From Sipunculus nudus (taxonomy: Eukaryota; Annelida; Sipuncula; Golfingiida; Sipunculidae), in NCBI GenBank assembly GCA_026874595.1, contig CM049309.1:35001-99000 (forward strand): a stretch of 64,000 bases of DNA. Direction: 5' to 3'. Positions 332 through 29,981 of this stretch are shown piece after piece. The position numbers were made by a program, and so were the translations under genes. The notes beneath the pieces are model-generated. The model was not told the origin of the DNA, made no database searches, and worked only from the letters and a program-made list of their open reading frames with translations. Positions within the stretch are counted from its first letter, which is position 1; every line of letters begins with the position of its first letter.

Positions 332-592
332 ATGAGTAACAGCGGCCTTCCGCAGGAGGCTGGCGGAAATGGGTTTGGACCCCATCGCCTCCTTCCACGC
401 CGACTGCACAGCTTTGTTGAAGTTTGAGTTCGTGAGTTTTTCCCCCGACCGCCCGACAAACATGCACGGGCATGTTTGGATGGCCAGGTCTCTCCGGATA
501 TATTTGACCCAGACGTCGAGTTGGTCTGAGTGTTTTGTGTCGACAACAAGCGTGGAGGGGCCGTAACTAGCCGTTGTCTTGTGCCTGGCAAC
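332..592 (-). CDS. Exon: C-terminal half of tyrosine-recombinase-like domain
   Basis: This 261-nt exon (87 codons) is phase 0 at both ends. Its acceptor is ATTTATAG and its donor is CAT|GTAAGT, a near-perfect consensus. The peptide starts [17 protein letters not shown], which looks like the beta-hairpin lysine region (HKT) of tyrosine recombinases. It ends [12 protein letters not shown], at the position of the second catalytic Arg box. The expected HxxR histidine is a Ser (SLLR), which is either a family feature or a sign of lost catalysis. The exon follows 1167-2056 across an intron of about 570 bp. The open frame continues past the donor to 242 but loses any resemblance there, so the ORF end is not the gene end. 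Confidence 0.7.
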
Positions 593-2479
593 CTATAAAT
601 ACAGGCATCAAAATGTTATACCTTGATTAATTTGTAACTGTTGTAAATAGAATCCGGATTCTATGAAACTGTCACATGAAGGCAAACATCCTTTTTATGC
701 GCTTAGTGTTCATATTAGTGTTTGTTAGTAACATTTTGTGATTGGGTTTAAAGGTTTACTTTTTATGGCCTGATTATGGTGAAGTTTGACCTTTCTACAA
801 CCCAGGCGAAATAAATTTGAACAAGTCGGCGTGATGAGTAGGGACTAAGTCTTCCACATATATACCATATCTACTATTATCTAGACGTAACAACAGTGCT
901 ACAACGGTCACATGAACAGCATTATTCGAATTGATTCTTCAACTTTTCGGAAAAATTGACAAAAAATTACTTTAATTGCCCAACTACTAATTTATTATGA
1001 CACGATATGGTAGAAATAGATAAAATTGTCTGGCACATCAAAACATTGTACAACTCACCATCTTTGTTCCACATTAAGCAGTTTGAATTGTAAACCAGAC
1101 TCTTTATTCCGTCGAAGTTGATTAAAATGGAGACTACTTTAAATGTTAGAAAAGAGTGTTACGTACCAGAATAACTTTCCGGTTGCCGTGGACACTGGCA
1201 TTTTGGTAATCTTTAACCGTCATGTTAATGATGGGGCTAGGCCTTGTGGCGTTGTGGATCAGAAACTGCAGAAGCAGATGGTTTCGCATTTTGATAGTGG
1301 GTCCAGATTTAGTTTTAAAATACACTTCCATCTGTTTAGCGTATGGGCTGGTCAAGTAGTTGGCGATATCTTTGGCCGTCGGTATTTTAGTCTGTTCCTC
1401 AATCCTTAGTTCAGCTTGCCTCTGAGAGTAGTTTTTCGAGGTTGCCTTGAGCCAGTTCTTTAGAAGATTTTGGACAACATTCAAAGATGCCGATGTAACG
1501 TTGGACAATGGACCCTGTTCTTGCACACGGAATGTCAGGAAATTCGTGTAAAGCTGCAAGGAATGGATATAGCTCCTGAAGGTCCCGGGCTGAGAATTTT
1601 CTATGATATGTTTAATGTGTCCAGACTGCATGGAGTCCTGGAGCCCGGATGTTGTAAAGTGATGCACATCTTTGACATCCTTCAACATCTTCTCAACTTG
1701 GGAGGAGTGTTGTAATGCGGACTTGTCAGAGCGGGCCCCGCCGCTGAACGATGTAAGGTGCGTCTGGAACTCTTCCAGTAACAGGTTGGGTGAGGCTGGC
1801 ACCTTAAAATAGCGTTTGTGCAGATCTGTGCCCCGCTTAAATCCGTGCACGGTGACGAGGTGGGAGTCTAGTCGCTGGCCGACGAAGGGGCAGCCAGCGA
1901 CACTGCAGCTACTCAGTTGTGTTGTTTCTACCTTCACTTCTGGGTGTACCGATCTCATGTGCCTTTTCAGGTTGCTCTTACGCTGTTTGCATATAGGGCA
2001 CATGGCCCCTGAACCTCTGCGAGCCCCAATCCTGTGGCGTCGGCGCCCCCTGTCACCTGCCAACAAAAATAATAAGTGAAACATGGACTACGACACCAAA
2101 CTTGCTTAACAAAGTTGTGGAGAAGGATATCTACAGACAAGCCTGTGCATTGTATAGATAGCGGCCCCAAACAAGAGTCGCTTCACACATAAGAGCTGTG
2201 TTAAAGCCAGATTCTGCTGAAGTTTAGGACCAAAACAAGGTAAGATTTGGACCATGACAACGTAAATTTGCGACCATAATATCGTAGGTTTTAGACCATA
2301 ACACTCAAGGTTTAGGACCGTAACGTAACTTTAGCAACATAACACTAAGTTTAGAACCATAAGAGTGAAGTTAAACAGCCAGGGTCCGCATCGTCCTACA
2401 GTGATACATACATACATATATGCATACATGCGTACATACATACATACATACACATACCCATGTTATGTTGTATACACAC

Positions 2480-2633: not shown

Positions 2634-5600
2634 TCATATACCATATATAAATACATATATTTTTAGATATATACCTAAATATACACACATATTTACATAC
2701 ATTTGTCAACAGTATTCTAAGCTTAGGTTTAGAACCATGAGATTGTTAGTTTAGGACCATAACAATGTAAGTTTAGGACTATAACACTTTATCTTTGAAC
2801 CATAACCCTGTAAGCTGTCGCCTATGTTTATGATCAAAGGGGTTATGTTTACTCCTTCATTTGTTATCATCAAAGAGCGTTTTTTTCACCTGTGTTTAAT
2901 ATCAAGCTCGTTTATATTTTCACCTCTATTTATTGTAAAGGAGATTGTTTTCTACTGTTTATTATCAAGGAGTGTTAAGTTGTAACTTATGTTTATGATC
3001 AAATAAGTCACGTTTTCACCTGTGTTTATCATAATTAAGGAGATAATGTTTTCATCTGTGTTGATGATAAAGGAAGTCATATTTTCACCTTTGTTAATAA
3101 TCAAGGTGTTCATGTTTCACCTGTTTTATTGTTCTTCTAATATATAAAGACATCCAGGAAAAAACAGAGCACATTGAGGGAAAATCTGGTGTTTTTCTGA
3201 AAAGTTGAATGCACCCTTGCATGAATTTTAATTATATTATGTGTGCGTAAAGAATCAGTAACATTACACTACAGATACAGTAAAACCGAATAAATAAATA
3301 AATGTTACAGATACCCGAGTGTTATTTATTGAAGCTTTAAACTGGGAAATGCATGCCTGAGAATATGAAACAGCATTGCGGGTGACAGGAATAGTACAAG
3401 GAATGCTATGGAGTATAAGGTGTGTCTGCACAACTTTTATTAAATTGTAAATTTTTCTAATATATAAAGACATCAAGGATAAATATGTGGAGCACATTGT
3501 ATGACAATCTGGGTGAATATTAATGAAAAGTTCCCTGTACACTTGCATAAGTGTGAATTTTCTAATATGTATATAATGAAACAGTCACATGACATAACAG
3601 ATTAAGTTAATACGAAATAAAAAGATAAGTCACAGAGAGTCCGACTGTTAGTTATGGAGTAACAAGGATTCTTTGGTTATCCCATTCAATGACTTAAATA
3701 GTTTTACACGACCCTGTTCTTTCATATTTTTAAAGTTTTGCATGGAAACTAAGAATAAATGACTAATCTGGGAAATATGGGAATGAGAATATGCAACAGC
3801 ATCCCTACCTTCTTGGCACGGCTCCAATTGCGTTTCCTCCTCTTGGACCGCCGCTTCCCCTTGGTCTGCTGTAAAAGAATGATATGTACAGACAAGTTTT
3901 GCTACTGTAGAGATAGCGGCTGCACAGAAGAGTTGCTTCCCATTTAGGCTGATGGGAAAAGGCAAACGCAGTTGTGGAGAGATGGTCTCTGACCACTGTG
4001 GGTGAAATGATATACAGCCATTTTGTACACAGTGCCAAAGGGAATTGGCCAAGGAATGCTATCGAGTATCAGGTGTTTCAGCACCACTTTGATCAAATTG
4101 TAACGTTTTTAATATATAAAGACGTCCAGGATAAAGCTGTGAAGCACATTGTATGACAATCTGGGCAAATATTAATGAAATGTTCACTGCATAATTGCAT
4201 TAAATTCTAATTTTCTTATATGTATGTAAAGAAACAGTCACATAACACAACGAATTAAGTTAATACGAAAATTCAGATAAGTCACAGAGAGTGCGTATGT
4301 TATTTGTGGAGTAACATAGATTCTTTGGTTATCCCATCCGTTGCATTAAATAGTTTTACACGACCCTGTTCTTTCATATTTTTAAAGTTTTGCATGGAAA
4401 CTAAGAATAAATGACTAATCTGGGAAATATGGGCATGAAAATATGCAACAACATCACTACCTTCTTTGCACGGCTCCAATTGCGTTTCCTCCTCTTGCAC
4501 CGTCGCTTCGCATAGGCCTGCTGTAAAAGAAGAACATGTACTGACAAGGTTTTCGACTGTATAGATAGCTGTTGCACAGAAGAGTTGCTTCCCATTGAGG
4601 CTGATGGGAAAAAGCAAACGCAGTTGTGGAGAGATGGTCTCTGACCACTGTTTGTGAAATGATTAACAGACATTTTGTACACAGTGCCAAAGGGAATAGG
4701 CCAAGGAATGCTATCGAGAATAAGGTGTGTCAGCACAACTTTTATAAAATTATAACGTTTTTAATTTATAAAGGCGTCCAGGATAAACATGTGAAGCACA
4801 TTGTATGACAATCTGGGCAAATATTAATGAAATGTTCACTGTACAATTGCATTAAATTCTAATTTTCTTATATGTATGTGAAGAAACAGTCACATTACAC
4901 AACAAGTTAATTTAATACGAAAAATACAGATAAGTCACAGAGAGTCTGAGTGTTAGTTATGGAGTAACAAGGATTCTTTGGTTATCCCATTCATTGCATT
5001 AAATAGTTTTACACGACCCTGTTCTTTCATTTTTTAAAGTTTGGCATGGAAACTAAGAATAAATGACTAATCGGGGAAATATGGGCATGAAAATATGCAA
5101 CAACATCACTACCTTCTTTGCTCGGGTCCAATTGCGTTTCCTCCTCTTGCACCGCCGCTTCGCCTAGGCCTGCTGTAAAAGAAGGACACGTACAGACAAG
5201 GTTTTCGACTGTACAGATAGCTGTTGCACAGAAGAGTTGCTTCCCATTGAGGCTGATGGGAAAAAGCAAACGCAGTTGTGGAGAGATGGTCTCTGACCAC
5301 TGTGGGTGAAATGATATACAGCCATTTTGTACATAGAGCCAAAGGGAAATGGCCAAGGAATGCTATCGAGTATAAGGTGTTTCAGCACCACTTTGATCAA
5401 ATTGTAACGTTTTTAATATATAAAGACGTCCAGGATAAACCTGTGAAGCACATTGTATGACAATCTGGGCAAATATTAATGAAATGTTCACTGTATAATT
5501 GCATTAAATTCTAATTTTCTTATATGTATGTAAAGAAACAGTCACATAACACAACGAATTAAGTTAATACGAAAATTCAGATAAGTCACAGAGAGTGCGT

Positions 5601-8398
5601 ATGTTATTTGTGGAGTAACATAGATTCTTTGGTTATCCCATCCGTTGCATTAAATAGTTTTACACGACCCTGTTCTTTCATATTTTTAAAGTTTTGCATG
5701 GAAACTAAGAATAAATGACTAATCTGGGAAATATGGGCATGAAAATATGCAACAACATCACTACCTTCTTTGCAAGGCTCCAATTGCGTTTCCTCCTCTT
5801 GCACCGTCGCTTCGCATAGGCCTGCTGTAAAAGAAGAACATGTACTGACAAGGTTTTCGACTGTATAGATAGCTGTTGCACAGAAGAGTTGCTTCCCATT
5901 GAGGCTGATGGGAAAAAGCAAACGCAGTTGTGGAGAGATGGTCTCTGACCACTGTTTGTGAAATGATTAACAGCCATTTTGTACACAGTGCCAAAGGGAA
6001 TAGGCCAAGGAATGCTACCGAGTATAAGGTGTGTCAGCACAACTTTTATAAAATTGTAACGTTTTTAATTTATAAAGGCGTCCAGGATAAACATGTGAAG
6101 CACATTGTATGACAAACTGGGCAAATATTAATGAAATGTTCACTGTACAATTGCATTAAATTCTAATTTTCTTATATGTATGTGAAGAAGCAGTCACATT
6201 ACACAACAAGTTAATTTAATACGAAAAATACAGATAAGTCACAGAGAGTCTGAGTGTTAGTTATGGAGTAACAAGGATTCTTTGGTTCTCCCATTCATTG
6301 CATTAAATAGTTTTACACGACCCTGTTCTTTCATTTTTTAAAGTTTGGCATGGAAACTAAGAATAAATGATTAATCGGGGAAATATGGGCATGAAAATAT
6401 GCAACAACATCACTACCTTCTTTGCTCGGGTCCAATTGCGTTTCCTCCTCTTGCACCGCCGCTTCGCCTAGGCCTGCTGTAAAAGAAGGACACGTACAGA
6501 CAAGGTTTTCGACTGTATAGATAGCTGTTGCACAGAAGAGTTGCTTCCCATTGAGGCTGATGGGAAAAAGCAAACGCAGTTGTGGAGAGATGGTCTCTGA
6601 CCACTGTGGGTGAAATGATATACAGCCATTTTGTACACAGAGCCAAAGGGAATAGGCCAAGAAATGCTATCGAGTATCAGGTGTTTCAGCACCACTTTTA
6701 TCAAATTGTAACGTTTTTAATATATAAAGACGTCCAGGATAAACCTGTGAAGCACATTGTATGACAATCTGGGCAAATATTAATGAAATGTTCACTGTAT
6801 AATTGCATTAAATTCTAATTTTCTTATATGTATGTAAAGAAACAGTCACATAACACAACGAATTAAGTTAATACGAAAATTCAGATAAGTCACAGAGAGT
6901 GCGTATGTTATTTGTGGAGTAACATAGATTCTTTGGTTATCCCATCCGTTGCATTAAATAGTTTTACACGACCCTGTTCTTTCATATTTTTAAAGTTTTG
7001 CATGGAAACTAAGAATAAATGACTAATCTGGGAAATATGGGCATGAAAATATGCAACAACATCACTACCTTCTTTGCACGGCTCCAATTGCGTTTCCTCC
7101 TCTTGCACCGTCGCTTCGCATAGGCCTGCTGTAAAAGAAGAACATGTACTGACAAGGATTTCGACTGTGTAGATAGCTGTTGCACAGAAGAGTTGCTTCC
7201 CATTGAGGCTGATGGGAAAAGCAAACGCAGTTGTGGAGAGATGGTCTCTGACCACTGTTTGTGAAATGATTAACAGCCATTTTGTACACAGTGCCAAAGG
7301 GAATAGGCCAAGGAATGCTACCGAGTATAAGGTGTGTCAGCACAACTTTTATAAAATTGTAACGTTTTTAATTTATAAAGGCGTCCAGGATAAACATGTG
7401 AAGCACATTGTATGACAAACTGGGCAAATATTAATGAAATGTTCACTGTACAATTGCATTAAATTCTAATTTTCTTATATGTATGTGAAGAAGCAGTCAC
7501 ATTACACAACAAGTTAATTTAATACGAATAATACAGATAAGTCACAGAGAGTCTGAGTGTTAGTTATGGAGTAACAAGGATTCTTTGGTTATCCCATTCA
7601 TTGCATTAAATAGTTTTACACGATCCTGTTCTTTCATTTTTTAAAGTTTGGCATGGAAACTAAGAATAAATGATTAATCGGGGAAATATGGGCATGAAAA
7701 TATGCAACAACATCACTACCTTCTTTGCTCGGGTCCAATTGCGTTTCCTTCTCTTGCACCGCCGCTTCGCCTAGGCCTGCTGTAAAAGAAGGACACGTAC
7801 AGACAAGGTTTTCGACTGTATAGATAGCTGTTGCACAGAAGAGTTGCTTCCGATTGAGGCTGATGGGAAAAAGCAAACGCAGTTGTGGAGAGATGGTCTC
7901 TGACCACTGTGGGTGAAATGATATACAGCCATTTTGTACACAGAGCCAAAGGGAATAGGCCAAGGAATGCTATCGAGTATAAGGTGTGTCAGCACAACTT
8001 TTATCAAATTGTAACGTTTTTAATATATAAAGACGTCCAGGATAAACCTGTGAAGCACATTGTATGACAATCTGAGCAAATATTAATGAAATGTTCACTG
8101 TATAATAGCATTAAATTCTAATTTTCTCATATGTATGTGAAGAAACAGTCACATTACACAACAAGTTAAGTTATGCAACAGCATCAGTACCTTTATTGCA
8201 AGGCTCCAATTGCGTTTCCTCCTTTTGGACCACCGCTTCCCCTTGGCCTGTTGTAAAAGAAGGATATGTACAGACAAGGCATATAAGATTTTATATATAT
8301 AAGATACATACGGTTTTGTATCAAATTTAGTATTATGCTGTGGGGGGGGGGGGTGGTAATTCGGAGCCAGATAACTCAGAGAATATGTCACAGTATGC

Positions 8399-8466
<68 letters not shown>

Positions 8467-10038
8467 TCACTGTTGGTGTCTGTGCAAATAACACCCAGTA
8501 GTGTGACAATGCCAAGATGAGGTTACAATTCATCACGTCTCAACAAAATACAAACGCAGATTCGACAATTGAAACTTTTCCAGGACGATAGACCACCGCG
8601 TAAAAGGAGGGAGTTAAAAGAATATAAACAGCCTTTGGTGTTCCAATATATGCTGCTCTAACCCTGACACCGGATTTCACGAAACATTAAAACTGACGTG
8701 TCACTCATTTATACACATGTGACAACATTTTGTCTCTAGACTGGCTTATCTTGTACATTGCGAAGAAAAACAACCTACGCAAACTAGAGTCCTGCTCCCT
8801 CTCGTCAATAGGCACTTTTAGTATGAAGATCTGGCCCGAGGGTAATCTGATGGTTGTGCCTGCAACAAAACACAGTCTAATTAAAAAAAGTTTACATGGG
8901 TTACATGGGTTCACACGGGACACATGGGTCACGTCGCTCAGCTGAAGTTGGAAAAAAATTGGAACTTAAACGTCATCATGTAACTGATATATGAGAAGTA
9001 AAATATAGTTTTATTAATATTCTTTTTCATAAATATAAATATTGAAAATATGAAAAATGAGAGAACAACAAACCCAATCACTGAGGCAAGAAAATAATGA
9101 ACAAAGTTTTGTATTAATTTTTTTTAATAAGTATATTTTTAATATACAAATTTCACTAAACAGTTTCAGTCGTATATATTTGAATATTTAAGTTGATTAA
9201 AATATTTTAAATTGCATCAACATTTCTAGTTAATCTGGTCAGGCAACATCACATCATTTACGCAGATGTTCTGATGGTTTCTGAAATATAATTTTTTTTT
9301 TAAATGTGCTATAACAATACTTATCTGGGAAAAAATCTTGATTCACGATTGAAACAAGAGACCCATGGGTCTCGTGGCTCAGCTGAATTTTTTGGAAATT
9401 TTTGTCAAATATAAATATACATGATTTTTATATATATATAAAATAACATTTTATTAAAATGTACCTATTTCGTTTGTTAAATATATTAGCATTTGAAAAG
9501 CTAAGAGGAAATAGCCCTGCTTCTGATAATTAAACATTAATTATATGTTTTATTAACTAATTCTGTGCACAGTTATGGTTTATATGAAAGATATAGAAGA
9601 GTCTGATGATCAAATATTTCAGTTAACATGCCTAACACTATGCAATGTCAATGATAGTTGTCTAAAAGCCCTGTTAACATGTCTAACAGTCTGCACCGTC
9701 ACTGATACTTGTCTAAAAGCACTGTTAACATGTCTTACAGTCTGCACGATCACTGAAGCTTGTCTAAAAGCCCACTTAACATGTCTAACAGTCTGCACGG
9801 TCACTGATACTTGTCTAAAAGCCCTGTTAACATGTCTAACAGTCTGCACGGTCACTGATACTTGTCTAAAAGCCCTGTTAACATGTCTTACAGTCTCCAC
9901 GGTCACTGATACTTGTCTAAAAGCCCAGTTGACATGTCTAACAGTCTGTACGGTTACTGATACTTGTCTAAAAGCCCTGTTAACATGCCTAACAGTCATT
10001 CATACATACCGATATTCATTCATAAATACCTGTAAACA

Positions 10039-10111
<73 letters not shown>

Positions 10112-13100
10112 CAATGTCAACTGTATTCTAAGCTTAAGTTTGGGAGCATAATTCTATATGTTTAGCACCATAACCATAAGTTTAGGACCATACCATCGTA
10201 AGTTTAGGATCATAACACTGTTAGTTTAGCACCATATCAATGTAATTTTAGGATCCTAACATAAGTGTAAGACCATAACGCTAAGTTTAAGACCATAGCA
10301 CTTCAAGTTTAGGAACATAACGTAAATTTAGGACCATATCACTGTATGTTTAGGAACCTAACAATGTAAGGTTATGGACATAGTGTACGTCTACGACCAT
10401 AACACTGTACCTTTAGGACCATAACATGTTGAGTTGAGGACCTTAACACTGTCTGCAGTTGAAATTACAGTCACTTGTCAGTGTTAGGAGCATAACCCGT
10501 CGAGTGTACGTTTATGACCATAACATGTTGAGTTGAGGACCTTAACACTGTCTTAAGTTGAAATTAGAATCACTTGTGGTAAAGCACTGTTCACATGTCA
10601 AACAGTATGCACGATCCCTGATACTTGTCTAAAAGTCATGTCAACAGGTCTAACAGTCTGCACGGTCACTGATACTTCTCTAAAAGCCCAGTTAACATGT
10701 CTATCAGTCTGCACGGTCACTGATACTTGTCTGAAATCCCAATTAAGATGTCTAACAGTGTCCATGGTTATGGACGCTGTTGTTAACGTTGACTTAAATA
10801 CAAAGATGAACCGAGAAAGGTTAGTAATGATGCACAGCCATTACGTCCACAATGGAAATAAGTGAAAGAGTTCGTTTTCATATTGATCACAATGTTTTGG
10901 GGCACACGAACTTTCCATGTTATTCGTTATAACGGATGAGAGAGTCCTAGGTAAACAATACTTATTGCTGCTACAAGGACACACGGTCCTGGAGAGATGC
11001 TCCCTCATCGCTGTGTTAGTAATGATGTACAGACATTATGTCTACAACGGAAATAAGGGAAAGAGTTCGTTTTTCATATTGACCACAATGTTTTTGGGCA
11101 CACAATCTTTCCATGTTATTCGTTATAACGGGCGACAGAGTCCTAGGTCAAAAACAAGTGTCGCTGCTAAAAGAACTGATAACAATTAACTTTAGAGAGA
11201 GATTAATGAGAGAGATATATATAGAGAGAGATAGAGAGAAAAAAGGGGAAATACATGGAGTAGACATAAAGACCGTGATGGAAAAGTACTATACTGACAT
11301 ATGACAAAAATCAATGATTAATCAACATTATTCCATTAAAATAAAAATTACTCACTGGACATGTTTTTGTCTGTGTCGTCTGACGCCTCGCTTAACTGGC
11401 TGTCTTCTTCACCTGAATGAATAGATTTAAATCAGAAGGATTAATACATCGAAAAAGTGATCTTGTGCACAGATTGAACTCAGAACGGTACAATAAATTT
11501 TCTAAAATAAATTGAAATTGTTTTTATACCTTATATATTAGTCTCGCCAGCTTCACTGTGACTGGAAGCTGATGTTAACGTTGAATTAAACACAAGCATC
11601 ACGTTACTTGAGAGTGTAAGTTGGATAAGTGTTGCATTCAATGTTCTGAACCGGATTCAATCTAACGCATGGCTGCGCAAAGAACAGTTTAACAGAGAAA
11701 GGCTAGTGGTATAGCTTCACCTGCGGATAAAAAGAATATGTACAGACAAACACGGTCCTGGAGAGATGCTGTCTCATCGCTGTGTTAGTAATGATGTACA
11801 GCCATTATGTACACAAAGGAAATAGGGGTAAGAGTTCGTTTTTCATATCGACCACAATGTTCTGGTGCACACAATCTTTCCATGTTATCCGTTATAACGG
11901 ACGACAGGGTCCTAGGTAAAAAATACGTGTCGCTGCTAAAAGAACTGATAACAATTAACTGTAGAATTTTATGAGAGAGACAGGGAGAAAGAAAGAAAAA
12001 GAGAGAGAGAGAAAAGGCGAAATACATTTAATAGATATAAAGACCGTGATGGAAAAGTACTTAACGGACATATGCCAAAAATCAATGAATATTAAACATT
12101 ATTCCATTAAAATAAAAATTACTCACTGGACATGACCATGTCTTTGTCGTCTGACGCCTCGCTTAACTGGCTGTCTTCTTCACCTGAATGAATAGATTTA
12201 AATAAGAAGGATTAATAAATAGATTAAAATCAGAAGGATTAATACATCGCAAAAGTGATCTTGGGCCCAGATTGAACTCAGAACGGGAAGATAACCTTTC
12301 TAAAAGAAATTGAAATTGTTTTCACCTTATATGTTAGTCTCGCGAGCTTCACTGTGACTGGAAGCTGATGTTAACGTTGAATTAAACACAAGCATCACGT
12401 TACTTGAGAGTGTAAGTTGGATAAGGGTTGCATTCAATGTTGTGGACCGGATTCAATCTAACGCATGGCTGCGCAAAGAACAGTTTAACCGAGAAAGGCT
12501 AGTGGTATAGCTTCACTTGCGATTAAAACGAATATGTACAGACAAACACGGTCCTGGAGAGATGCTGTCTCATCGCTGTGTTAGTAATGATGTACAGCCA
12601 TTATGTACACAAAGGAAATAGGGGTAAGAGTTCGTTTTTCATATCGACCACAATGTTCTGGTGCACACAATCTTTCCATGTTATCCGTTGTAACGGACGA
12701 CAGGGTCCTAGGTCAAAAATACGTGTCGCTGCTAAAAGAACTGATAACAATTAACTGTAGAATTTTATGAGAGAGAGAGGGAGAAAGAAAGAAAGAGAGA
12801 GAGAGAGAGAAAAGGCGAAATACATTTAATAGATATAAAGACCGTGATGAAAAGTACTAAACCGACATATGACAAAAATCAATGAATAATAAACATTATT
12901 CCAATAAAATAAAAATACTCACTGCATTCAATGTTTAGGTCTTTGTCGTCTGACGCCGCGCTTAACTGGCCGTCTTCTTCACCTAAATGAACAGATTTAA
13001 AACAGAACAATTAATACATAGGAAAAGTGATCTTGTGCACAGATTGAACTCAGAACGGTAAGATAATTTTTCTAAAATATATTGAGATTTTTTTGTTCTC

Positions 13101-15990
13101 TTATATATTCGTCTCGCGAGCTTCACTGGAACTGGACGCTGTTGTTAACGTTGAATTAAACACAAGCATCACGTTACTTGACAGTGTAAGTTGGATAAGT
13201 GTTGCATTCAATGTTCTGAACCGGATTCAATCTAAAGCATGGCTACGCAGCAAACAGTTTAACAGAGAAAGGCTAGTGTTATGGCCTCAACTGCTGTAAA
13301 GAAAAATATGTACAGAAACAAACGGACCTGGAGAGATGCTCTCTCATCGCTGTGTTAGTAATGATGTACAGCCATTATATACATAAAGGAAATAGGTGTA
13401 AGAGTTCGTTTTCATATCGACCACAATGTTTTGGTGCACACAATCTTTCCATGTTATTCGTTATAACGGATGACAGAGTCCCAGGTAAAAAATACGTGTC
13501 GCTGCTAAAAGAACTGGTAACAATTAACTTTGGGATTTATGAGAGAGATGTATATATTCAAAGAGAGAGAGAAAAGAGGAAATATGTAGAGTGGACATAC
13601 AGACCGCCATGGAAAAGTACTATGGCGACATATGACAAAAATCAATGAATAATCAACTTTATTGCATTTAATTTAAAATTACTCACTGGACATGTTTATG
13701 TCTTTGTCGTCGGACGCCTCGCTTAACTGGCTGTCTTCTTCACCTGAATGAACAGAAAGATTAATACATCGTACAGTGGGCTTGTGCACAGATTGAACTC
13801 AGAACGGTAAGATGAATTTTCTAAAATAAATTGATAGTTGAGTTTTTTTCCTAATATATTCGTTTCGCGAGCTTCACTGAGACTGGACGCTGTTGGTAAC
13901 GTTGAATTAAACACAAGCATCACGTCACTTGAGAGTGTAAGTTGGATAAGTGTTGCATTCAATGTTCTGAACCGGATTCAATGTAACGCATGGCTGCGCA
14001 ACGAACAGTTTAACATGAAAGGCTAGTGTTATAGCTTCACCTGTGGTAAAAAAGAATATGTACAGACAAACACGGTCCTGAAGAGATGCTGTCTCACGGC
14101 TGTGTTATTAATGATGTACAGCCATAATGTATCAATGGAAATTGGGGAAAGAGTTTGCTTTCAGATCAATCACAATGTTTTGGGGCACACAATCTTTCCA
14201 TGTTATCCGTTGTAACGGATGACAGAGTCCTAGGTCAAAAGTACGTGTCGCTGCCATAAGAACGGGTAACAATTAACTTTAGAATTTATAAGATAGAGAG
14301 AGAAAGAAAGAAAGAGAGAGAGAGAAAAGAGAAATACATAAAATAGACATAAAGACAGTTATGGAAAGTACTTTATCGACATATGCCAAAAAGCAATGAA
14401 TAATCAACATTATTCCAATAAATAAAAATTACTTTAACACTCACTGGAAATGTTTCTGTCTTTGGCGTTAAAATTCATGAGAGCGAGTGAAAAAAATGAG
14501 AGCGAGAAAAGCGGAAATTCATAGAATAGACATAAAGACCCTGATGGAAAAGTACTTAACCGACATATGACAAAAATCAATGAATAATCAGCATTATTCC
14601 ATTAAAGTAAAAATCACTCACTGGACATGTTTCTGTCTTTGTCGTCTGACGCCTCGCTTAACTGGCTGTCTTCTTCACCTGAAAGAACAGATTGAAAACA
14701 GAACAGTCAATACATATGAAAAGTGATCTTGTGCACAGATTGAACTCCGAACGGTAAGATGATTTTTCTAAAACAAATTGAAATTGTTTTTTTTTTCTCA
14801 TATATATTCGTCTCGCGATCTTCACTGGGACTGGACGCTGTTGTTAACGTTGAATTAAACACGCGCATCACGTTACTTGACAGTGTACGTTGTTCTGAAC
14901 CGGATTCAATCTAAAGCATGGCTACGCAACAAACAGTTTAACAGAGAAAAGCTAGTGTTGTGGCTTCAACTATTGTAAAGAAGAATATGTACAGAAACAA
15001 ACGGTTCCGGAGAGATGCTCTCTCACAGCTGTGTTAGTAATGTTGTACAGCCATTATGTATCAATGGATAGAGGGGAAAGAGTTCGTTTTCATATCGACC
15101 ACAATGTTTGAGTGCACACAATCTTTCCATGTTATTCGTTATAACGGATGACAGAGTCCGGGGTCAAAAATACGTGTCCTTTCTACAAGAACTGATAACA
15201 ATTAACTTAAGAATTTATGATAGAGCGAGAGAAAGAAAGAGAGAGAGAGAAAGAAAGAAAGGGGAAATCCATAGAATGGACATAAAACCGTTAAGGCAAG
15301 TACTAGGGCGACATATGAAAAAATAAATGAATAATCAGCATTATTCCATTAAAGTGAAAATCACTCACTGGACATGCTTCTGTCTTTGTCTTCTGACGCA
15401 GCGCTTAACTTGCTGTCTTCTTCACCTGAATGAACAGATTTAAAACAGAAAGATTAATACATGGTACAGTGGGCTTGTGCACAGATTGAACTCAGAACGG
15501 TAAGATGAATTTTATCAAATAAATTGATAGTTGAGTTTTTTCCCCTAATATATTCGTCTCGCGAGCTTCATTGGGACTGGACGGTGTTGTTAACGTCGAA
15601 TTAAACACAAGCATCACGTTACTTGACAGTGTAAGTTGGATAAGTGTTGCATTCAATGTTCTGAACCGGATTCAATCTATATAACGTATGGCTGCGCAAC
15701 AAACAGTTTAACAGAGAAAGGCTAGTGTAATGGCGTCAACTATTGTAAAGAAGAATATGTACAGAAACAAACGGTCCTGGAGAGATGCTGTCTCACAGCT
15801 GTGTTAGTAATGATGTACAGGTATCATGCATCAATGGAAATAGGGGAAAGAGTTCGTTTTCATATCGACCACAATGTTTTGGTGCACAGAATCTGTCCAT
15901 GTTATTCGTTATAACGGTCCTAGGTAAAAAATACGTGTCGCTACTACAAGAACTAATAACAATTAACTTTAGAATTTTATGAAAGAAAGA

Positions 15991-16026
<36 letters not shown>

Positions 16027-17493
16027 AAAGGGGAAATATATTTAATAGACATAAAGACCGTCATGGAAAAGTACTATATCGACATATGACAAAAATCAAT
16101 GAATAATCAACATTATTCCATCAAAGTAAAAAGTACTCACTGGACATGTTTCTGTCTTTGTCTTCTGACGCCTCGCTTAACTGGCTGTCTTCTTCACGTG
16201 AATGAACAGATTTAAAACAGAAATATTAATACACCGGAAAAGTGATCTTGTGCACAGATTGAACTCAGAACGGTAAGATGATTTTTCAGAAATAAACAGA
16301 CGGCCTGAGAAACCGTAGGGCAAAAGGCATAAATCATTCATTGTATCGGAATCATGACCGAAACACAACTGATAATAGAATATAAGACTGCTGTTAAATG
16401 TTATAAGATTATTGCTGTAAATGAATAATTACACACTAGATAAGATTATTTCATTAAAGAAATTATTACACACCCGAATCATCTTGGTCGTCGCTTGAAC
16501 CAGTATCAGTACCGTACTCTGTAATGCATATAATTATAAAAATGTTAAAGTTTTATTAATCGTATTCAATTTATCAAATTAAAAACCTAAGAGGAATTTA
16601 TAAATAAAATATTTGAGCTGTTATAATGAACAAACTCGTTATAAATGAGCTGTGGCCTGACCTGTGGCCTTACAGGTTGATTATCCGATAGAGTAATTTT
16701 TAAGTTCACCTAACTAGAGAGCTGACTTGGACATGAACAAAGTTTAACCGTGTTTATTTATGAGGTATTAAACAATTTGAGCTCAAGGATTAGGAATATG
16801 ACAAATTGAAGAATATCTCATTCTGTATGCTTTGCAAAATGATTAGGCAATACCTACCTAACTGGACTACCTCAGGTGTCTCCAATTCTTCAGGTAATTC
16901 TGTAAATGTATTGAATAAATTTTCTTTACTCAAATACGTTAGTTTATGAAAAAAAATACGACGTGAAAAATATGACAATATTAAAACTTTAAATTTACTT
17001 TGGAGCTATCTTCCTGTGAAGCACAAATTAAAATACCACTATGTTATACATCAGAAAGCTATATATGACACGGGTGACTCATTGGCACGAGGCTCAAGCC
17101 ACGGAGTTAGTTCTATACACATGAACAGTACTAATAAAATGATTCGCTCACAAAAGTTGTTGGTTTAATATAAATCAACATGATGCTTGCATGAATAACG
17201 TACCTGGCATTGTTTCTTGCCCGAACATCTCAAGCCTGAAAGCTGCAACAGATGTAAAACACAATACATTTAAACAGTAATGTGAAAGCTGGATAGATAC
17301 TTGCTTGTATTGCGTTTGTTAATAGCTGGGTTGGAGATTTTTAAATAAAGTTTCAATTGTGATACCTTAAAAAGTTTTTTTCAGGATAACTTTTATAAAA
17401 TATAAAGGTATCTTTTTCGCAAAATTAAGTTCAATAAAGAATCTGACCTTTCCAAAACTCTTCATCCAGCTCTGGTGAATCCTTTTCTGCCAT
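332..17493 (-). CDS. Multi-exon zinc-finger / tyrosine-recombinase-like gene with mini-exon arrays (3' end outside window)
   Basis: This is a spliced gene model built by eye from splice sites and reading frame. Exons in transcription order: 17504-17448 (ATG at 17493), 17242-17204, 16899-16858, 16518-16474, six or seven exons between 16197 and 11356, 8859-8779, eight exons between 8250 and 3809, 2056-1167 and 592-332. Every internal junction up to the zinc-finger exon falls after the first codon base, and the junction 1167/592 is phase 0. Without the 16141-16197 copy, whose acceptor is damaged, the joined frame is about 740 codons with no stop. The N-terminal third is acidic and repetitive. 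The C-terminal part has two C2H2 fingers and a tyrosine-recombinase-like domain related to Crypton/DIRS-type recombinases. Function is unknown; a domesticated or transposon-borne recombinase is possible. The last exon(s), expected to carry the catalytic Tyr, were not found in 1-331. No transcript evidence is available. Confidence 0.6.
593..1166 (-). other. Intron of the zinc-finger/recombinase-like gene
   Basis: AT-rich intron between GTACGT (1166 downward) and ATTTATAG (600-593). No repeat or other feature was recognised in it. Confidence 0.6.
1167..2056 (-). CDS. Exon: two C2H2 zinc fingers plus N-terminal recombinase-like core
   Basis: This 890-nt exon has a strong acceptor (TTATTTTTGTTGGCAG) and donor (CTG|GTACGT). 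The ATG-initiated frame that opens at 2084 begins inside the intron, so that ATG is probably not used. Counting from the first full codon, finger 1 is C19-x2-C22-x9-H32-x4-H37 and finger 2 is C50-x4-C55-x9-H65-x4-H70. A helical segment of about 190 residues follows and resembles the core-binding half of a tyrosine recombinase. Near the end, [17 protein letters not shown] fits the box I region, whose Arg (about residue 271) would be the first catalytic Arg. The entry phase matches the mini-exons upstream. Only this donor keeps exon 332-592 open; the alternative GTAC|GTAAC would hit a stop. Confidence 0.75.
2221..2375. repeat. Degenerate ~20-bp 'TTTAGGACCATAAC' repeat block
   Basis: About seven imperfect units of roughly 20 bp, each carrying a form of TTTAGGACCATAAC. 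The same motif recurs at 2550-2815, 10120-10560, 17965-18030, 18205-18235, 27420-27560, 32795-32830, 33742-33765, 34625-34675, 36055-36090, 36340-36410 and 36580-36620, usually at the edges of other repeat blocks. Confidence 0.7.
2403..2632. repeat. Tetranucleotide (CATA) and two (TA)n microsatellites
   Basis: CATA-type repeats lie at about 2403-2452, followed by (TA)n at 2486-2543 and a second (TA)n at 2585-2630. A TTTAGGACCATAAC unit separates the two (TA)n tracts. Confidence 0.85.
2818..3135. repeat. ~45-bp degenerate minisatellite
   Basis: Seven or eight imperfect units are built on TTTTCACCTGTGTTTATGAT followed by CAAGGAG. Unit length varies from about 40 to 50 bp. No coding content is seen. 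Confidence 0.6.
3809..3868 (-). CDS. Mini-exon, array 1 copy nearest the zinc-finger exon
   Basis: This is a 60-nt phase-1 exon (57 nt if the second AG of the CAGCAG acceptor is used) with donor GAAG|GTAGGG. It encodes [19 protein letters not shown], a strongly acidic peptide. Its last base joins the zinc-finger exon to form a Gly codon (G+GT). Confidence 0.6.
4461..4520 (-). CDS. Mini-exon, array 1 type B
   Basis: 60-nt phase-1 exon between TTTTACAG and GAAG|GTAGTG. It encodes [20 protein letters not shown]. Confidence 0.6.
5113..5172 (-). CDS. Mini-exon, array 1 type A
   Basis: 60-nt phase-1 exon between TTTTACAG and GAAG|GTAGTG. It encodes [20 protein letters not shown]. Confidence 0.6.
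5765..5824 (-). CDS. Mini-exon, array 1 type B
   Basis: 60-nt phase-1 exon, nearly identical to 4461-4520, with one change in the Pro codon near its 3' end and the same splice sites. Confidence 0.6.
6417..6476 (-). CDS. Mini-exon, array 1 type A
   Basis: 60-nt phase-1 exon, the same as 5113-5172, one dimer (1304 bp) away. Confidence 0.6.
7069..7128 (-). CDS. Mini-exon, array 1 type B
   Basis: 60-nt phase-1 exon, the same as 4461-4520. The flanking unit is one base shorter because an A is lost from an A run near 7218. Confidence 0.6.
7720..7779 (-). CDS. Mini-exon, array 1 type A variant
   Basis: 60-nt phase-1 exon. It encodes [20 protein letters not shown], in which one Glu has become Lys. 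Confidence 0.6.
8191..8247 (-). CDS. Mini-exon, array 1 most diverged copy
   Basis: 57-nt phase-1 exon with donor AAAG|GTACTG. The tandem acceptor ACAGCAG of the other copies is ACAACAG here, so only the second AG remains. The peptide is [18 protein letters not shown]. Confidence 0.5.
8335..8464. repeat. Poly-G run and (TA)n microsatellite
   Basis: A G-run at 8341-8353 is followed by about 66 bp of (TA)n at 8398-8464. The open frames across it are artefacts. Confidence 0.9.
8465..8778. other. Intronic single-copy-looking sequence
   Basis: No repeat was recognised. A plus-strand stretch at about 8533-8661 is open and basic ([17 protein letters not shown]) but has no clear splice sites or start, so it is not called as a gene. 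Confidence 0.3.
8779..8859 (-). CDS. 81-nt phase-1 exon between the two mini-exon arrays
   Basis: The acceptor TGTTTTGTTGCAG is excellent and the donor C|GTAGGT fits the consensus. The exon enters and leaves in phase 1. It encodes [18 protein letters not shown] followed by EREQDSSL, a non-repetitive hydrophobic stretch unlike the acidic mini-exons, which suggests a folded piece. It joins the array 2 exons (A+GC = Ser) and the first array 1 exon (C+GC = Arg) in frame. Confidence 0.6.
8915..9390 (+). mobile_element. Two Helentron/HINE-like 5' ends within an intron
   Basis: GCTCAGCTGA occurs at 8936-8945 and 9377-9386. Each copy follows a short palindrome; at 9359-9372 this is AGACCCATGGGTCT, a perfect 14-bp inverted repeat. 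The arrangement matches the 5' ends at 38.2 and 50.95 kb. No matching 3' hairpin was found nearby, so these may be truncated elements. Confidence 0.45.
9390..9574. other. AT-rich intronic sequence
   Basis: No gene or clear repeat is visible; a short (TA) run lies near 9430-9440. Confidence 0.4.
9610..10005. repeat. 51-bp minisatellite
   Basis: About seven units contain ACTTGTCTAAAAGC and GTTAACATGTCTAACAGTC. TCTAAAAGCC at 9661 recurs at 9712, so the period is 51 bp, or 17 codons. One plus-strand frame (9575-10111) and one minus-strand frame (9619-9999) therefore stay open across the array. The plus-strand peptide repeats [17 protein letters not shown]. Low-complexity content and the run into (TA)n argue against a gene. 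Confidence 0.85.
10039..10110. repeat. (TA)n microsatellite
   Basis: About 72 bp of alternating TA directly after the 51-bp minisatellite. Confidence 0.95.
10120..10560. repeat. Largest 'TTTAGGACCATAAC' block
   Basis: About 20 degenerate units of roughly 20 bp carry TTTAGGACCATAAC. A longer partial duplication pairs AGTTGAGGACCTTAACACTG at 10431 with its copy near 10531. Confidence 0.75.
10575..10775. repeat. 51-bp minisatellite, second block
   Basis: About four more diverged units of the 51-bp repeat at 9.6-10.0 kb, separated from it by the (TA)n tract and the TTTAGGACCATAAC block. It abuts the first unit of array 2. Confidence 0.75.
11356..11412 (-). CDS. Mini-exon, array 2 copy 1
   Basis: 57-nt phase-1 exon between TTCATTCAG and TCCA|GTGAGT. 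It encodes [18 protein letters not shown], an acidic Ser-rich peptide. Confidence 0.6.
12127..12183 (-). CDS. Mini-exon, array 2 copy 2
   Basis: 57-nt phase-1 exon with the same splice sites. It encodes [18 protein letters not shown]. Confidence 0.6.
12923..12982 (-). CDS. Mini-exon, array 2 copy 3 (60 nt)
   Basis: 60-nt phase-1 exon with acceptor TTCATTTAG. It encodes [19 protein letters not shown]. The three extra bases at the donor side keep the frame. Confidence 0.55.
13687..13743 (-). CDS. Mini-exon, array 2 copy 4
   Basis: 57-nt phase-1 exon. It encodes [18 protein letters not shown]. Confidence 0.6.
14446..14470 (-). pseudogene. Truncated mini-exon copy
   Basis: Only the donor half of the array 2 exon is present (GACAGAAACATTTCCA before GTGAGTG). 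The acceptor half is lost in a short, partly deleted unit at about 14440-14500. Confidence 0.6.
14622..14678 (-). CDS. Mini-exon, array 2 copy 5
   Basis: 57-nt phase-1 exon with acceptor TGTTCTTTCAG. It encodes [18 protein letters not shown]. Confidence 0.6.
15369..15425 (-). CDS. Mini-exon, array 2 copy 6
   Basis: 57-nt phase-1 exon. It encodes [18 protein letters not shown]; all the changes are in-frame substitutions. Confidence 0.6.
16141..16197 (-). CDS. Mini-exon, array 2 copy 7, acceptor lost
   Basis: The coding part is intact ([18 protein letters not shown]) with donor TCCA|GTGAGT. The acceptor reads TTCATTCAC instead of TTCATTCAG, so the exon has no AG at its usual edge and is probably skipped. 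Skipping leaves the frame intact. Confidence 0.4.
16474..16518 (-). CDS. 45-nt phase-1 exon, acidic
   Basis: The acceptor is TGCATTACAG and the donor G|GTGTGT. It encodes [14 protein letters not shown]. The SDDQD core resembles the SDDKD of the array 2 exons, so this may be a single-copy relative. It joins the upstream exon as G+AG = Glu and the downstream exon as G+GT = Gly. Confidence 0.6.
16858..16899 (-). CDS. 42-nt phase-1 exon
   Basis: The acceptor is ACATTTACAG and the donor TTAG|GTAGGT. It encodes [13 protein letters not shown]. Both junctions keep the frame (G+AA = Glu before, G+AG = Glu after). Confidence 0.65.
17204..17242 (-). CDS. 39-nt phase-1 exon
   Basis: The acceptor is ACATCTGTTGCAG and the donor CCAG|GTACGT. 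It encodes [12 protein letters not shown]. It joins the start-codon exon as G+CT = Ala. Confidence 0.6.
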
Positions 17494-17504
17494 TTCATGA
17501 GGTT
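17448..17504 (-). CDS. Probable start-codon exon
   Basis: An ATG at 17493 in good context (GAAATGG) opens [15 protein letters not shown] in the frame used by all downstream exons, with donor AAAG|GTCAGA. Its left side could be 5' UTR or a splice acceptor (AAGGCCAG|AACC, weak pyrimidine tract). If spliced, it would be another 57-nt phase-1 exon and the true start would lie further upstream. Confidence 0.5.
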
Positions 17505-17964: not shown

Positions 17965-18235
17965 CAACAATGTAAGTTTAGGACCATGACGTAAGTTTAG
18001 GACCAAAACGTAAGTTTAGGACCATAAAAATGCATGTTTTGGATTATATACCGACATATATACACATATATACATATATAGAGAATGAACAATTTAGTTA
18101 TAATGAACAACTTGTTATAATGAACAACTTGTTATAATGAACAATTTGGTTATAATGAACAACAGGACCTGTGTGCTTTCCAATGCATTAGCATTCACTT
18201 GACCCCTATGTATCTTTAGGACCATAACCCTCAAG
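17965..18235. repeat. TTTAGGACCATAAC units and an 18-bp GTTATAATGAACAACTT repeat
   Basis: Three TTTAGGACCATAAC units (17970-18030) are followed at 18084-18165 by about four units of GTTATAATGAACAACTT. Its reverse complement matches the large 18-bp minisatellite at 31.1-32.7 kb. Confidence 0.7.
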
Positions 18236-19345: not shown

Positions 19346-22300
19346 TATCAGTTCTTGTTTCAGACTTAAGAAAATTATCGAAACTACTGATATTTTCAAA
19401 ATAGCCGAAAAACTTATCGGGAACAACCGACAATGTTCAAATACTGAGAAAATCCCTTAATTATTTATTCCCTGGAGAAGGACCAAAAGTACTATAATTT
19501 TTCAGCATTTCCACTTATATATTTAGCGGTTCACATTTCAGACTAAAATAACTTATCGTCACTACCGACATTTTCAAAATAGCCGGATGACTTATCGGCA
19601 TAAGCGACAATGTTCAAATACTGAGAAAATCCCTTATTGCCTGCACTAGGACCAAAAGTACTTTAATTTTTAGCATTTCAATATGTGTATTTAATGGATC
19701 ACATTTCAGACTAAAATAACTTATCGACACTACAGACATTTTCCAAATAGCCCGATGACTTATCGGCAAAAGCGACAATGTTCAAATACTGAGAAAATCC
19801 CTTATTGCCAGGAGTAGGACCAAAAGTACTATAATTTTTCAGCATTTCCACTTATATATTTAACGGTTCACAATTCAGACTAAATTAACTTATCGACACT
19901 ACCGACATTTTCAAAATAGCTGAATAACTTATCGGCATAAGCGACAATGTTCAAATACTGAGAAAATCCCTTATTGCCTGGAGTAGGACTAAAAGTACTA
20001 AAATTTTTCATCATTTCCACATATATTTAACGGTTCACATTTCAGACTAAAATTACTTATCGACACTACCAACATTTTCAAAAATGCCCGATGACTTATC
20101 GGCATAAGCGAAAATGTTCAAATACTGAGAAAATCCCTTATTGCCTGGAGTAGGTCCGAAAGTACCATAAGTTTTCAGCATTTCCACTTATATGTTTAAC
20201 AGTTTACTATTGAGACTAAATTAAGTTATGGACACTACTGACATTTTCAAAAAATCTGAATAACTTATCGGCAACACCGACAATGTTCAAATACTGAGAA
20301 AATCCCTTATTGCCTGCACTAGGACCAAAAGTACTAAAATTTTTCAGCATCTCCCTATATATTTAACGGTTCATATTTCAGACTAAAATTACTTATCGAC
20401 ACTACCGACATTTTCAAAATAGCCCGATGACTTATCGGCAAAAGCAACAATGTTCCAATACTGATAAAATCCCTTATTGCCTTGAGCAGGACCAAAAGTA
20501 CTATCATTTTTCAGCATTTCCACTTATATGTTTAACGGTTTACTATTAAGGCTAAATTAACTTATCGACACTACCGACATTTTCAAAAAAGCCAAAAAAA
20601 TTATCTTCAACACCGACAATGTTCAAATACTGAGAAAATCCCTTATTGCTTGGAGTAGGACTAACAGTACTAAAATTTTTCATCATTTCCACATATATTT
20701 AACGGTTCACATTTCAGACTAAAATACTTATTGACACTACCGACATTTTCAAAAATGCCGGATGACTTATCGCCATAAGCGAAAATGTTCAAATACTGAG
20801 AAAATCCCTTATTGCCTGGAGTAGGACCAAAAGTACTATAAGTTTTCAGCATTTCCACTTATATGTTTAACGGTTTACTATTAAGACTAAATTAAGTTAT
20901 CGACACTACCGACATTTTCAAAAAATCCAAATAACTTATCGGCAACACCGACAATGTTCAAATAATGAGAAAATCCCTTATTGGCTGCACTAGGACTAAA
21001 AGTACTATATTTTTCAGCATTTCCACTTATATGTTTAACGGTTCACATTTCAGACTAAATTAACTTATCGACACTACCGACATTTTCAAAAAAGCCGGAT
21101 GACTTATCGGCATAAGTGACAATGTTCAAATACTGAGAAAATCCCTCATTGTCTGGAGCAGGACCAAAAGTACTACAATTTTTCAGCATTTCCACTTATA
21201 TATTTAACGGTTCACAATTCAGACTAAATTAACTTATCGACACTACCGACATTTTCAAAATAGCCGAAAAACTTATCTTCAACACCGACAATGTTCAAAT
21301 ACTGAGAAAATCCCTTATTGCTTGGAGTAGGACTAACAGTACTAAAATTTTTCATCATTTCCACATATATTTAACGGTTCACATTTCAGACTAAAATACT
21401 TATCGACACTACCGACATTTTCAAAAATGCCGGATGACTTATCGGCATAAGCAAAAATGTTCAAATACTGAGAAAATCCCTTATTGCCTGGAGTAGGACC
21501 AAAAGTACTATAAGTTTTCAGCATTTCCACTTATATGTTTAACGGTTTACTATTAAGACTAAATTAAGTTATCGACACTACTGACATTTTCAAAAAATCC
21601 GAATAACTTATCGGCATAAGCGACAATGTTCAAATACTGAGAAAATCCCTTATTGCCTGGAGTAGGACTAAAAGTACTAAAATTTTTCATCATTTCCACA
21701 TATATTTAACGGTTCACATTTCAGACTAAAATTACTTATCGACACTACCGACATTTTCAAAAATGCTGGATGACTTATCGGCATAAGCGAAAATGTTCAA
21801 ATACTGAGAAAATCCCTTATTGCCTGCACTAGGACCAAAAGTACTAAAATTTTTCACCATCTCCCTATATATTTAACAGTTCATATTTCAGACTAAAATT
21901 ACTTATCGACACTACCGACATTTTTAAAATAGCCAGATGACTTATCGGCATAAGCGACAATGTTCAAATACTGAGAAAATCCCTTATTGCCTGGACTAGA
22001 CCAAAAGTACTTTAATTTTTAGCATTTCAATATGTGTATTTAATGGATCACATTTCAGACTAAAATAACTTATCGACACTACCGACATTTTCCAAATAGC
22101 CCGATGACTTATCGGCAAAAGCGACAATGTTCAAATACTGAGAAAATCCCTTATTGCCTGGGGTAGGACAAAAAGTACTATAATTTTCCAGCATTTCCAC
22201 TTATATATTTAACAGTTCACAATTCAGACTAAATTAACTTATCGACACTACCGACATTTTCAAAATAGCCGAATAACTTATCGGCATAAGGGACAATGTT

Positions 22301-22387
22301 CAAATACTGAGAAAATCCCTTATTGCCTGGAGTAGGACCAAAAGTACTATCATTTTTCAGCATTTCCACCGATATATTGAACGGTTC

Positions 22388-22586
22388 ACCTTAGTCAGAT
22401 TCAAATAGCCTAAGTTGATCAAATTAGGATTCAACATAAGCTTAAGTTTATCAACCTACCCTAAGTTGTTCAACTTAAGATCCAACATAAGCTTAAGTTG
22501 ACATTCAACATAATAAGTTGACAAACTGAAGATTTCAATATAGGCTTAAGTTTATCAACTTAACTAACCCTAACCCTAACCTAAAG
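22388..22586. repeat. Telomere-tailed cassette in the satellite, copy 1
   Basis: It starts CTTAGTCAGATTCAAATAGC, continues with AAGCTTAAGTT repeats and ends CTAACCCTAACCCTAACC before the satellite resumes. Copies with the same internal layout lie at 24310, 28535 and 29785. Confidence 0.85.
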
Positions 22587-24307: not shown

Positions 24308-24505
24308 CACCTTAGTCAGATTCAAATAGCCTAAGTTGATCAAATTAGGATTCAACATAAGCTTAAGTTTATCAACCCACCCTAAGTTGTTCAACTTAAG
24401 ATCCAACATAAGCTTAAGTTGACATTCAACATAATAAGTTGACAAACTGAAGATTTCAATATAAGCTTAAGTTTATCAACTTAACTAACCCTAACCCTAA
24501 CCTAA
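24308..24505. repeat. Telomere-tailed cassette, copy 2
   Basis: Same layout and nearly the same sequence as 22388-22586, including the terminal CTAACCCTAACCCTAACC. Confidence 0.85.
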
Positions 24506-28433: not shown

Positions 28434-28534
28434 GCGAAAATGTTCAAATACTGAGAAAATCCCTTATTGCCTGGAGTAGGACCAAAAGTACTAGTATTTT
28501 TCAGCATTTCCACCGATATATTGAACGGTTCATG

Positions 28535-28732
28535 CACCTTAGTCAGATTCAAATAGCCTAAGTTGATCAAATTAGGATTCAACATAAGCTTAAGTTTATC
28601 AACCTACCCTAAGTTGTTCAACTTAAGGTCCAACATAAGCTTAAGTTGACATTCAACATAATAAGTTGACAAACTGAAGATTTCAATATAAGCTTAAGTT
28701 TATCAACTTAACTAACCCTAACCCTAACCTAA
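28535..28732. repeat. Telomere-tailed cassette, copy 3
   Basis: As 22388-22586, with a small ATGCAC insertion near its start. Confidence 0.85.
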
Positions 28733-29783: not shown

Positions 29784-29981
29784 CACCTTAGTCAGATTCA
29801 AATAGCCTAAGTTGATCAAATTAGGATTCAACATAAGCTTAAGTTTATCAACCTACCCTAAGTTGTTCAACTTAAGATCCAACATAAGCTTAAGTTGACA
29901 TTCAACATAATAAGTTGACAAACTGAAGATTTCAATATAGGCTTAAGTTTATCAACTTAACTAACCCTAACCCTAACCTAA
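29784..29981. repeat. Telomere-tailed cassette, copy 4
   Basis: As 22388-22586, ending CTAACCCTAACCCTAACC. Confidence 0.85.

Follow-up and report, generated by a model that had tools for sequence, protein, structure and literature searches.

Introduction

Several described systems share features with a gene found in a 64,000-nucleotide (nt) stretch of the Sipunculus nudus genome (assembly GCA_026874595.1, contig CM049309.1, here C4, positions 35001-99000); this whole stretch is called the window below. One of these systems is titin, a muscle protein whose sequence is not known to be related to this gene. The PEVK part of titin is described as an extensible charged region with many short repeated exons, subject to exon duplication and loss (PMC6469411); schistosome micro-exon genes are described as secretion-associated, alternatively spliced genes whose coding regions consist mostly of very small symmetrical exons (PMC4350168); and the Crypton-derived DUF3504 genes (KCTD1, KIAA1958, ZMYM2-4, QRICH1 and WOC) are described as carrying recombinase-derived host domains, some of them with zinc fingers (PMC3212892). 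The known animal DUF3504 genes have reportedly lost the tyrosine and the second arginine (PMC3212892).

The gene in the window has the repeated symmetric short exons and the charged region of the titin PEVK type, which is a functional analogy and not membership by sequence. In contrast to titin, each satellite-like unit of 0.65-0.9 kb holds one exon, change comes in dimers of two exons, and the variation is found between gene copies of one genome. As in the schistosome micro-exon genes, the coding region is made mostly of very small symmetrical exons; these exons, however, are copies arranged in tandem, and they belong to a gene for a protein with zinc fingers and a recombinase domain. Unlike in the DUF3504 genes, the tyrosine and the second arginine are present in the three genes that were read, and DUF3504 was absent among the Pfam matches of two cores at E values up to 1; by origin, the gene stands near, not within, the Crypton-derived DUF3504 genes. 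Like the tyrosine recombinases XerC and XerD, it gives profile matches over the catalytic domain, but its XerC score (27.5 versus 335 bits) falls far under the family cut-off, the box II His is replaced by Ser, and the gene is eukaryotic and multi-exon. A literature search returned no description of this gene layout, as judged on titles and the first parts of abstracts and with thin coverage of subscription journals. The parts are of known kinds; what is new is their combination, and the two-exon steps between near-identical copies of one genome.

Results

Exon chain and reading frame

We conclude that the window carries a real and unusual coding gene of a nuclear multicopy family. The gene sits inside a near-terminal duplicated block, and the window lies 35-99 kb from the contig end, near the start of a 97.5-Mb contig. 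On the minus strand, one open frame of 735 codons in 21 exons runs from the ATG at 17493 to position 332, and AG and GT are present at every internal exon border. An earlier reading of the letters of the window (the original prediction) had proposed an open frame from this ATG to a zinc-finger exon, which we find free of stops, and the junctions 17448/17242, 16474/15425...11356, 8779/8247, 3809/2056 and 1167/592, all of which have AG before and GT after. Within the chain are 18 mini-exons of 39-81 nt, all of phase 1 and a multiple of three in length, and 14 of them sit in two tandem arrays (A and B). The predicted numbers had been about 19 and 15, respectively; the fifteenth array exon (16141-16197) is likely dead, as described below. 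Exon 1 and the 18 mini-exons together encode 352 amino acids with 110 Asp or Glu versus 25 Lys or Arg (net charge about -85), and this N-terminal region, correctly foreseen as acidic, is followed by the zinc-finger exon.

The gene continues beyond these exons. After the exon at 332-592 comes an exon with a His...Tyr motif (HMCHRVSTADRHYD) and then a short phase-0 exon, as read in the copy on contig C12 with borders set by eye. A third array, which lies 3' of the recombinase domain and beyond the window on its own contig, consists of four basic 69-nt phase-0 exons in tandem; two further diverged phase-0 exons (placed by eye) and a terminal exon with the stop codon follow. When exact strings were searched in the six full gene copies described below, the first bases of the terminal exon were present in all six and those of the His...Tyr exon in four, being unreadable in the other two. 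As a separate observation, a second partial terminal exon was seen in L009 at about 2055-2423 (complement), downstream of the first stop codon. The original prediction had missed this basic array, which with the terminal exon lies past the edge of the window, and likewise the occurrence of the gene near many chromosome ends and the existence of paralogs that have their own arrays.

We consider it probable that the protein encoded by this gene binds DNA and descends from a tyrosine recombinase, and that its charged regions are built from mini-exons that lie in intronic tandem repeats. All of the mini-exons would then be spliced into the transcript.

Gene copies and paralogs

Genome-wide scans covered one assembly of 1.43 Gb in 153 contigs. 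A 383-amino-acid query spanning the zinc-finger and recombinase region found 10 full, near-identical zinc-finger exons, one partial one, and diverged relatives on many contigs. Stops were flagged in several relatives; the second recombinase exon drew the same flag although it is intact, its match entering the intron, so that the flag alone is no proof of a pseudogene. An exact 87-base piece of array B occurred at 13 or more genomic places, a lower bound because 40 of 85 candidates were scored; 12 of the 13 places are no further than about 0.28 Mb from a contig end, and the remaining one is on C6. Besides the window, five full copies (C17, C15, C13a, C13b and C12) and a truncated copy on C9 were read. 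The C9 copy (L028) stops inside array B, and an unrelated tandem satellite lies next to it. The six full copies, including the window, are 99.88-99.99% identical over about 10.2 kb.

Two diverged paralogs were also read. The first, C13c, lies close to an end of C13; it is open across the exons read and is 65% identical over the 432-amino-acid core. It has two arrays of phase-1 exons: one repeats an 87-nt exon four times with a period of about 199 bp, and the other, with a period of about 1 kb, holds three exons that measure 75, 69 and 72 nt. Its C-terminal repeats have a period of about 950 bp. The introns around E1-E4 align between C13c and C12 at about 70-74%, and the mini-exons align poorly. 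The second, C3i, is an interior paralog 8.6 Mb into C3. BLAST found five copies of its 57-nt phase-1 exon, each of them open, and it also has three identical 75-nt phase-0 exons.

The recombinase domain

The Pfam Phage_integrase profile matched the window core with an E value of 5.8e-6 (26.6 bits) and the paralog with 0.0013 (19.0 bits), and the XerC and XerD profiles matched the core with 1.9e-6 and 5.5e-6, respectively. These catalytic-domain matches are modest but concordant; they place the core in the tyrosine recombinase superfamily, in line with the DNA-binding or recombinase-like domain originally proposed. R271, R377 and Y412 of the joined core, assigned by eye as the box I Arg, the box II Arg and the Tyr nucleophile, are invariant between the window gene and C13c and are also present in C3i. 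The Arg, Lys, Arg, His and Tyr catalytic candidates are conserved; the position of the box II His (HxxR) is Ser in the window gene, C13c and C3i (SASLLR). Other residues, such as Lys, occur at this position in relatives. Two C2H2-like fingers were recognised by eye, with weak finger matches in Pfam, and the protein probably binds DNA through its fingers and recombinase fold. A protein database search with the 383-amino-acid query yielded none of 1534 candidates at E <= 0.001; viral contigs gave five pattern matches and no relatives, PHROGs gave no match at 0.01, and searches of solved structures by sequence gave four matches, and two matches with a two-sequence profile, all at E >= 0.3 and none to a recombinase.

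The Arg of box I, the Arg of box II and the Tyr at its expected place would also suit a gene that is, or lately was, a mobile Crypton-like tyrosine-recombinase element whose near-terminal copies are insertions, as would the many copies and the diverged interior relatives, at least one of them broken. However, the six full copies match at 99.1% or more in blocks that begin 1.9 kb upstream and reach as far as the terminal exon, the exceptions being array A number, the loss within exon X and unread stretches, and they therefore look like pieces of a duplicated terminal block. The gene moreover has more than 21 exons, Ser replaces the box II His in each of the three genes read, and DUF3504 is not among the Pfam hits. 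We give this explanation little credence, and favour a recombinase-derived gene that has been duplicated near chromosome ends.

Copy number of array A

The six full copies differ in the number of array A exons: 8 in the window, 10 in C17, 10 in C15, 8 in C13a, 6 in C13b and 10 in C12. Genome-wide, the array A exon pattern gave 101 matches, all within 11 gene copies (C3, 12; C4 left, 8; C4 right, 10 and 8; C6, 14; C8, 7; C12, 9; C13, 6 and 7; C15, 10; C17, 10). The first exon of C12 and of C13a lacks the pattern and was found by BLAST, so that the true counts are 10 and 8; in C8, too, a first exon without the pattern is likely, which would give 8. The 11 copies thus span 6-14 array A exons, and the number is even in 10 of the 10 fully counted copies. 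When units were typed by near-identity (at most 4 differences), the unit strings were abcdefgh in the window, ab-ib-cdefgh in C17 and C15, ajibgh in C13b, bcdef-ef-gh in C12 and bcdefgh in C13a, the first unit being untyped in the latter two. These strings show two-unit blocks gained or lost: "ib" is added, "ef" is doubled and C13b is shortened. Given that the two unit types alternate, the dimer, with a period of about 1.3 kb, is the unit of change.

Long repeats that are about 90-97% identical, positions at contig ends and unread stretches nearby are conditions in which assembly or collapse errors could produce such differences. Yet the counts differ between distinct chromosomes that have private unit strings (C12 alone has "ef" twice in a row; C17 and C15 have "ib" following "ab"), the final unit type is present just once in each of 11 copies, and even counts throughout would be unexpected under random collapse; we hold such errors to be a very improbable cause. 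The two-unit steps between near-identical copies are instead the footprint of dimer exchange or of equivalent gain and loss. It had been predicted that copy number is set by exchange between repeats, and this is supported for array A; array B did not vary, with 7 copies in all six full gene copies. Protein length seems to be set by array repeat number. The full copies also differ at exon X, since a stretch with its 3' part and donor is absent from C17 and C15; exon X is symmetric, so that skipping it preserves the frame.

Array B

In the window, array B contains 7 full copies and a fragment near 14438-14464. Identity between its copies is mostly 82-87%, with one pair at 93%; by this divergence, and with its constant number, array B seems to be older and frozen. 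The acceptor of 16141-16197 is AC in all seven gene copies read, the truncated C9 copy among them, which leaves six usable B exons; judging by this splice site, 16141-16197 is probably a dead exon.

Evidence for coding and selection

Most array A exons could shift by one codon to a longer exon, as their acceptors (3809-8256) read ACAGCAG; the first reads ACAACAG. When intervals bounded by AG and GT and open in all units were sought in array A of the window alone (7 of 8 units, the first left out), 30 interval and frame combinations passed, and 3 passed on the other strand. Such a result, together with the B copy that lacks an acceptor and a mini-exon pN/pS (nonsynonymous versus synonymous differences per site) near 0.9, is what might be seen if the arrays were ordinary intronic satellites, the AG...GT intervals were chance or relict, and the transcript joined a few 5' exons to the zinc-finger exon. 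When 12 array A copies were compared, however (the window plus five C3i exons; 390 bases around the exon), the proposed exon alone survived across the two loci, in phase 1 only, as 57/60-nt acceptor variants with a nested 33-nt piece and with none on the other strand. In array B (6 copies), four intervals passed, namely the exon, two nested phase-1 pieces and one overlapping 39-42-nt phase-2 interval; the opposite strand gave none. Under a rough neutral model whose divergence was set by hand, the probability that all copies stay open was 0.022 for 13 A exons, 0.33 for 6 B exons, and 0.42 and 0.63 for the two C13c arrays. Between fixed splice sites, moreover, lengths differ by threes: besides 57/60, the three unique exons E2, E3 and E4 measure 39/42, 42/33 and 45/69 nt in the window and C13c, respectively, with alignable introns on their flanks and phase 1 open in both. 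A similar layout is also found at three loci. These points speak against chance intervals in satellites, which we regard as unlikely, and for mini-exons that are coding.

Mini-exon divergence was below the mean of the two flanks in all seven arrays, and clearly so in five; the margins were small for C13c_2 (0.106 versus flanks of 0.128 and 0.095) and C3i_C (0/225 versus 14/900 sites). Pooled, 414/4731 sites differed in exons versus 3594/21227 in flanks, these being pairwise counts that are not independent. The comparison took in the first B copy with its AC acceptor; it left out the B fragment, two diverged C exons, the fourth unit of the second C13c array, the half copy in the C array of C3i, and the C-terminal repeats of C13c, whose exons stayed undefined. 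Chance-looking intervals from the scan of paralog arrays were not used. Gaps that are not a multiple of three numbered 0/10 in exons versus 153/178 in flanks, a test that counts for little because exons were chosen as multiples of three; the length pairs 39/42, 42/33 and 45/69 appear more telling.

In the core, pN/pS against C13c was 0.278/0.872, 0.175/0.817, 0.138/0.867 and 0.223/0.797 in four exons (ratio about 0.16-0.32), where synonymous sites are saturated so that only the direction is safe. Against C3i, dN/dS (the corresponding ratio of substitution rates) was 0.094 for one exon; the second exon was saturated. These comparisons indicate purifying selection on the core. Selection on the amino acids of the mini-exons was considered and dropped, pN/pS being about 0.9; selection there would preserve the reading frame, the class of length and the charge and leave the residues free.

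Several points weigh against the interpretation favoured here. The mini-exon pN/pS is 0.87-0.99 within five arrays, and array A exons differ by 46% between the window and C3i, with flanks differing by 38% and 22%. The gap test is partly circular, and its 10 exon gaps stem from two arrays and few events. Varying columns between copies (0/584 in exons versus 10/5573 in introns) are too few to inform. In C13c, the fourth copy of the second array keeps the acceptor and loses the donor at the equivalent place; C3i has a frame-broken zinc-finger exon, and its terminal exon was not found in the 20 kb read. The copy number of array B is unchanged, copy counts were drawn from a single assembly, the Phage_integrase match lies 0.5 bit under the Pfam cut-off (26.6 versus 27.1 bits), and splicing of the chain is deduced from the DNA sequence.

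Feature coordinates and surrounding repeats

Table 1. Positions in the window of the exons and arrays of the gene.
Feature	Position	Strand	Basis
Exon 1, coding part from ATG 17493 (start may lie further upstream)	17448..17493	-	open frame, GT donor
Mini-exon E2, 39 nt, phase 1	17204..17242	-	AG/GT, open; matched in C13c by an open phase-1 exon of 42 nt
Mini-exon E3, 42 nt, phase 1	16858..16899	-	open chain; matched in C13c by an open phase-1 exon of 33 nt
Mini-exon E4, 45 nt, phase 1	16474..16518	-	open chain; matched in C13c by an open phase-1 exon of 69 nt
Array B, irregular tandem units of about 750-935 bp, 7 full copies	10820..16296	-	repeat comparison
Array B copy with AC for AG acceptor	16141..16197	-	7 gene copies read
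Array B exon 1, 57 nt	15369..15425	-	open chain
Array B exon 2, 57 nt	14622..14678	-	open chain
Array B exon 3, 57 nt	13687..13743	-	open chain
Array B exon 4, 60 nt, in-frame 3-nt difference	12923..12982	-	open chain
Array B exon 5, 57 nt	12127..12183	-	open chain
Array B exon 6, 57 nt	11356..11412	-	open chain
Exon X, 81 nt, phase 1; 3' part absent from C17 and C15	8779..8859	-	open chain, copy comparison
Array A, 651/652-bp units (first 471 bp), two alternating types, copy number variable	3388..8256	-	
Array A exon 1, 57 nt	8191..8247	-	open chain
Array A exon 2, 57 nt	7720..7776	-	open chain
Array A exon 3, 57 nt	7069..7125	-	open chain
Array A exon 4, 57 nt	6417..6473	-	open chain
Array A exon 5, 57 nt	5765..5821	-	open chain
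Array A exon 6, 57 nt	5113..5169	-	open chain
Array A exon 7, 57 nt	4461..4517	-	open chain
Array A exon 8, 57 nt	3809..3865	-	open chain
Exon with two C2H2-like fingers and start of tyrosine-recombinase catalytic domain (box I Arg), 890 nt	1167..2056	-	
Exon with beta-strand Lys and box II (SASLLR), 261 nt, phase 0	332..592	-	

Satellites abound in the part of the window upstream of the gene, and the only three open reading frames of at least 150 amino acids in 18000-64000 are all low-complexity frames in an 18/36-bp tandem array. This array (CATAATAACGAGGTTGGA; 31103-32709) has long low-complexity open frames on both strands. A 168/169-bp satellite forms several blocks in 19358-30765 and 34875-35460, and a higher-order period of 335-337 bp is seen in most of them. 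An internal telomere-type (ACCCTA)n array lies at 36903-37233, some 72 kb into the contig, and has the orientation expected of a left-hand telomere. A 35-bp satellite with a CCCTA-like core forms three separate arrays (37296-37850, 47215-47734 and 56489-59698), and a dispersed short motif like GTTTAGGACCATAACA clusters in introns and flanks (2220-2814, 10157-10462, 17972-18027 and elsewhere).

Discussion

The data can be put together in a model in which each repeat unit would be a cassette that holds one symmetric exon with its own splice sites, so that gain or loss of a unit alters length without a frameshift. Unequal exchange of misaligned dimers of ~1.3 kb, or equivalent repeat-based gain and loss, would add or remove two exons per step, and near-terminal exchange would copy the gene between chromosomes; the copies may well have spread by exchange between chromosome ends. 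The product would begin with an acidic region and carry a basic one behind the recombinase domain, both adjustable in length, and would end with the part encoded by the conserved terminal exon; both charged regions may act as flexible linkers in which length counts over sequence. It is a long shot, though one that may be named, that the protein is a host tyrosine recombinase, possibly still catalytic, whose gene resides in the terminal blocks of many chromosomes and which joins in exchange between chromosome ends, its own spread and the satellite-borne tuning of its charged linkers reinforcing each other.

Within a single genome, nature thus offers nearly identical copies of one gene whose coding exons differ in number by whole two-exon steps. 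With this set it can be tested how satellite-type exchange changes proteins without breaking their frames, and whether selection on disordered regions sees their length and charge and not their sequence. A further gain is a gene family of recombinase descent in which the tyrosine and the second arginine are retained.

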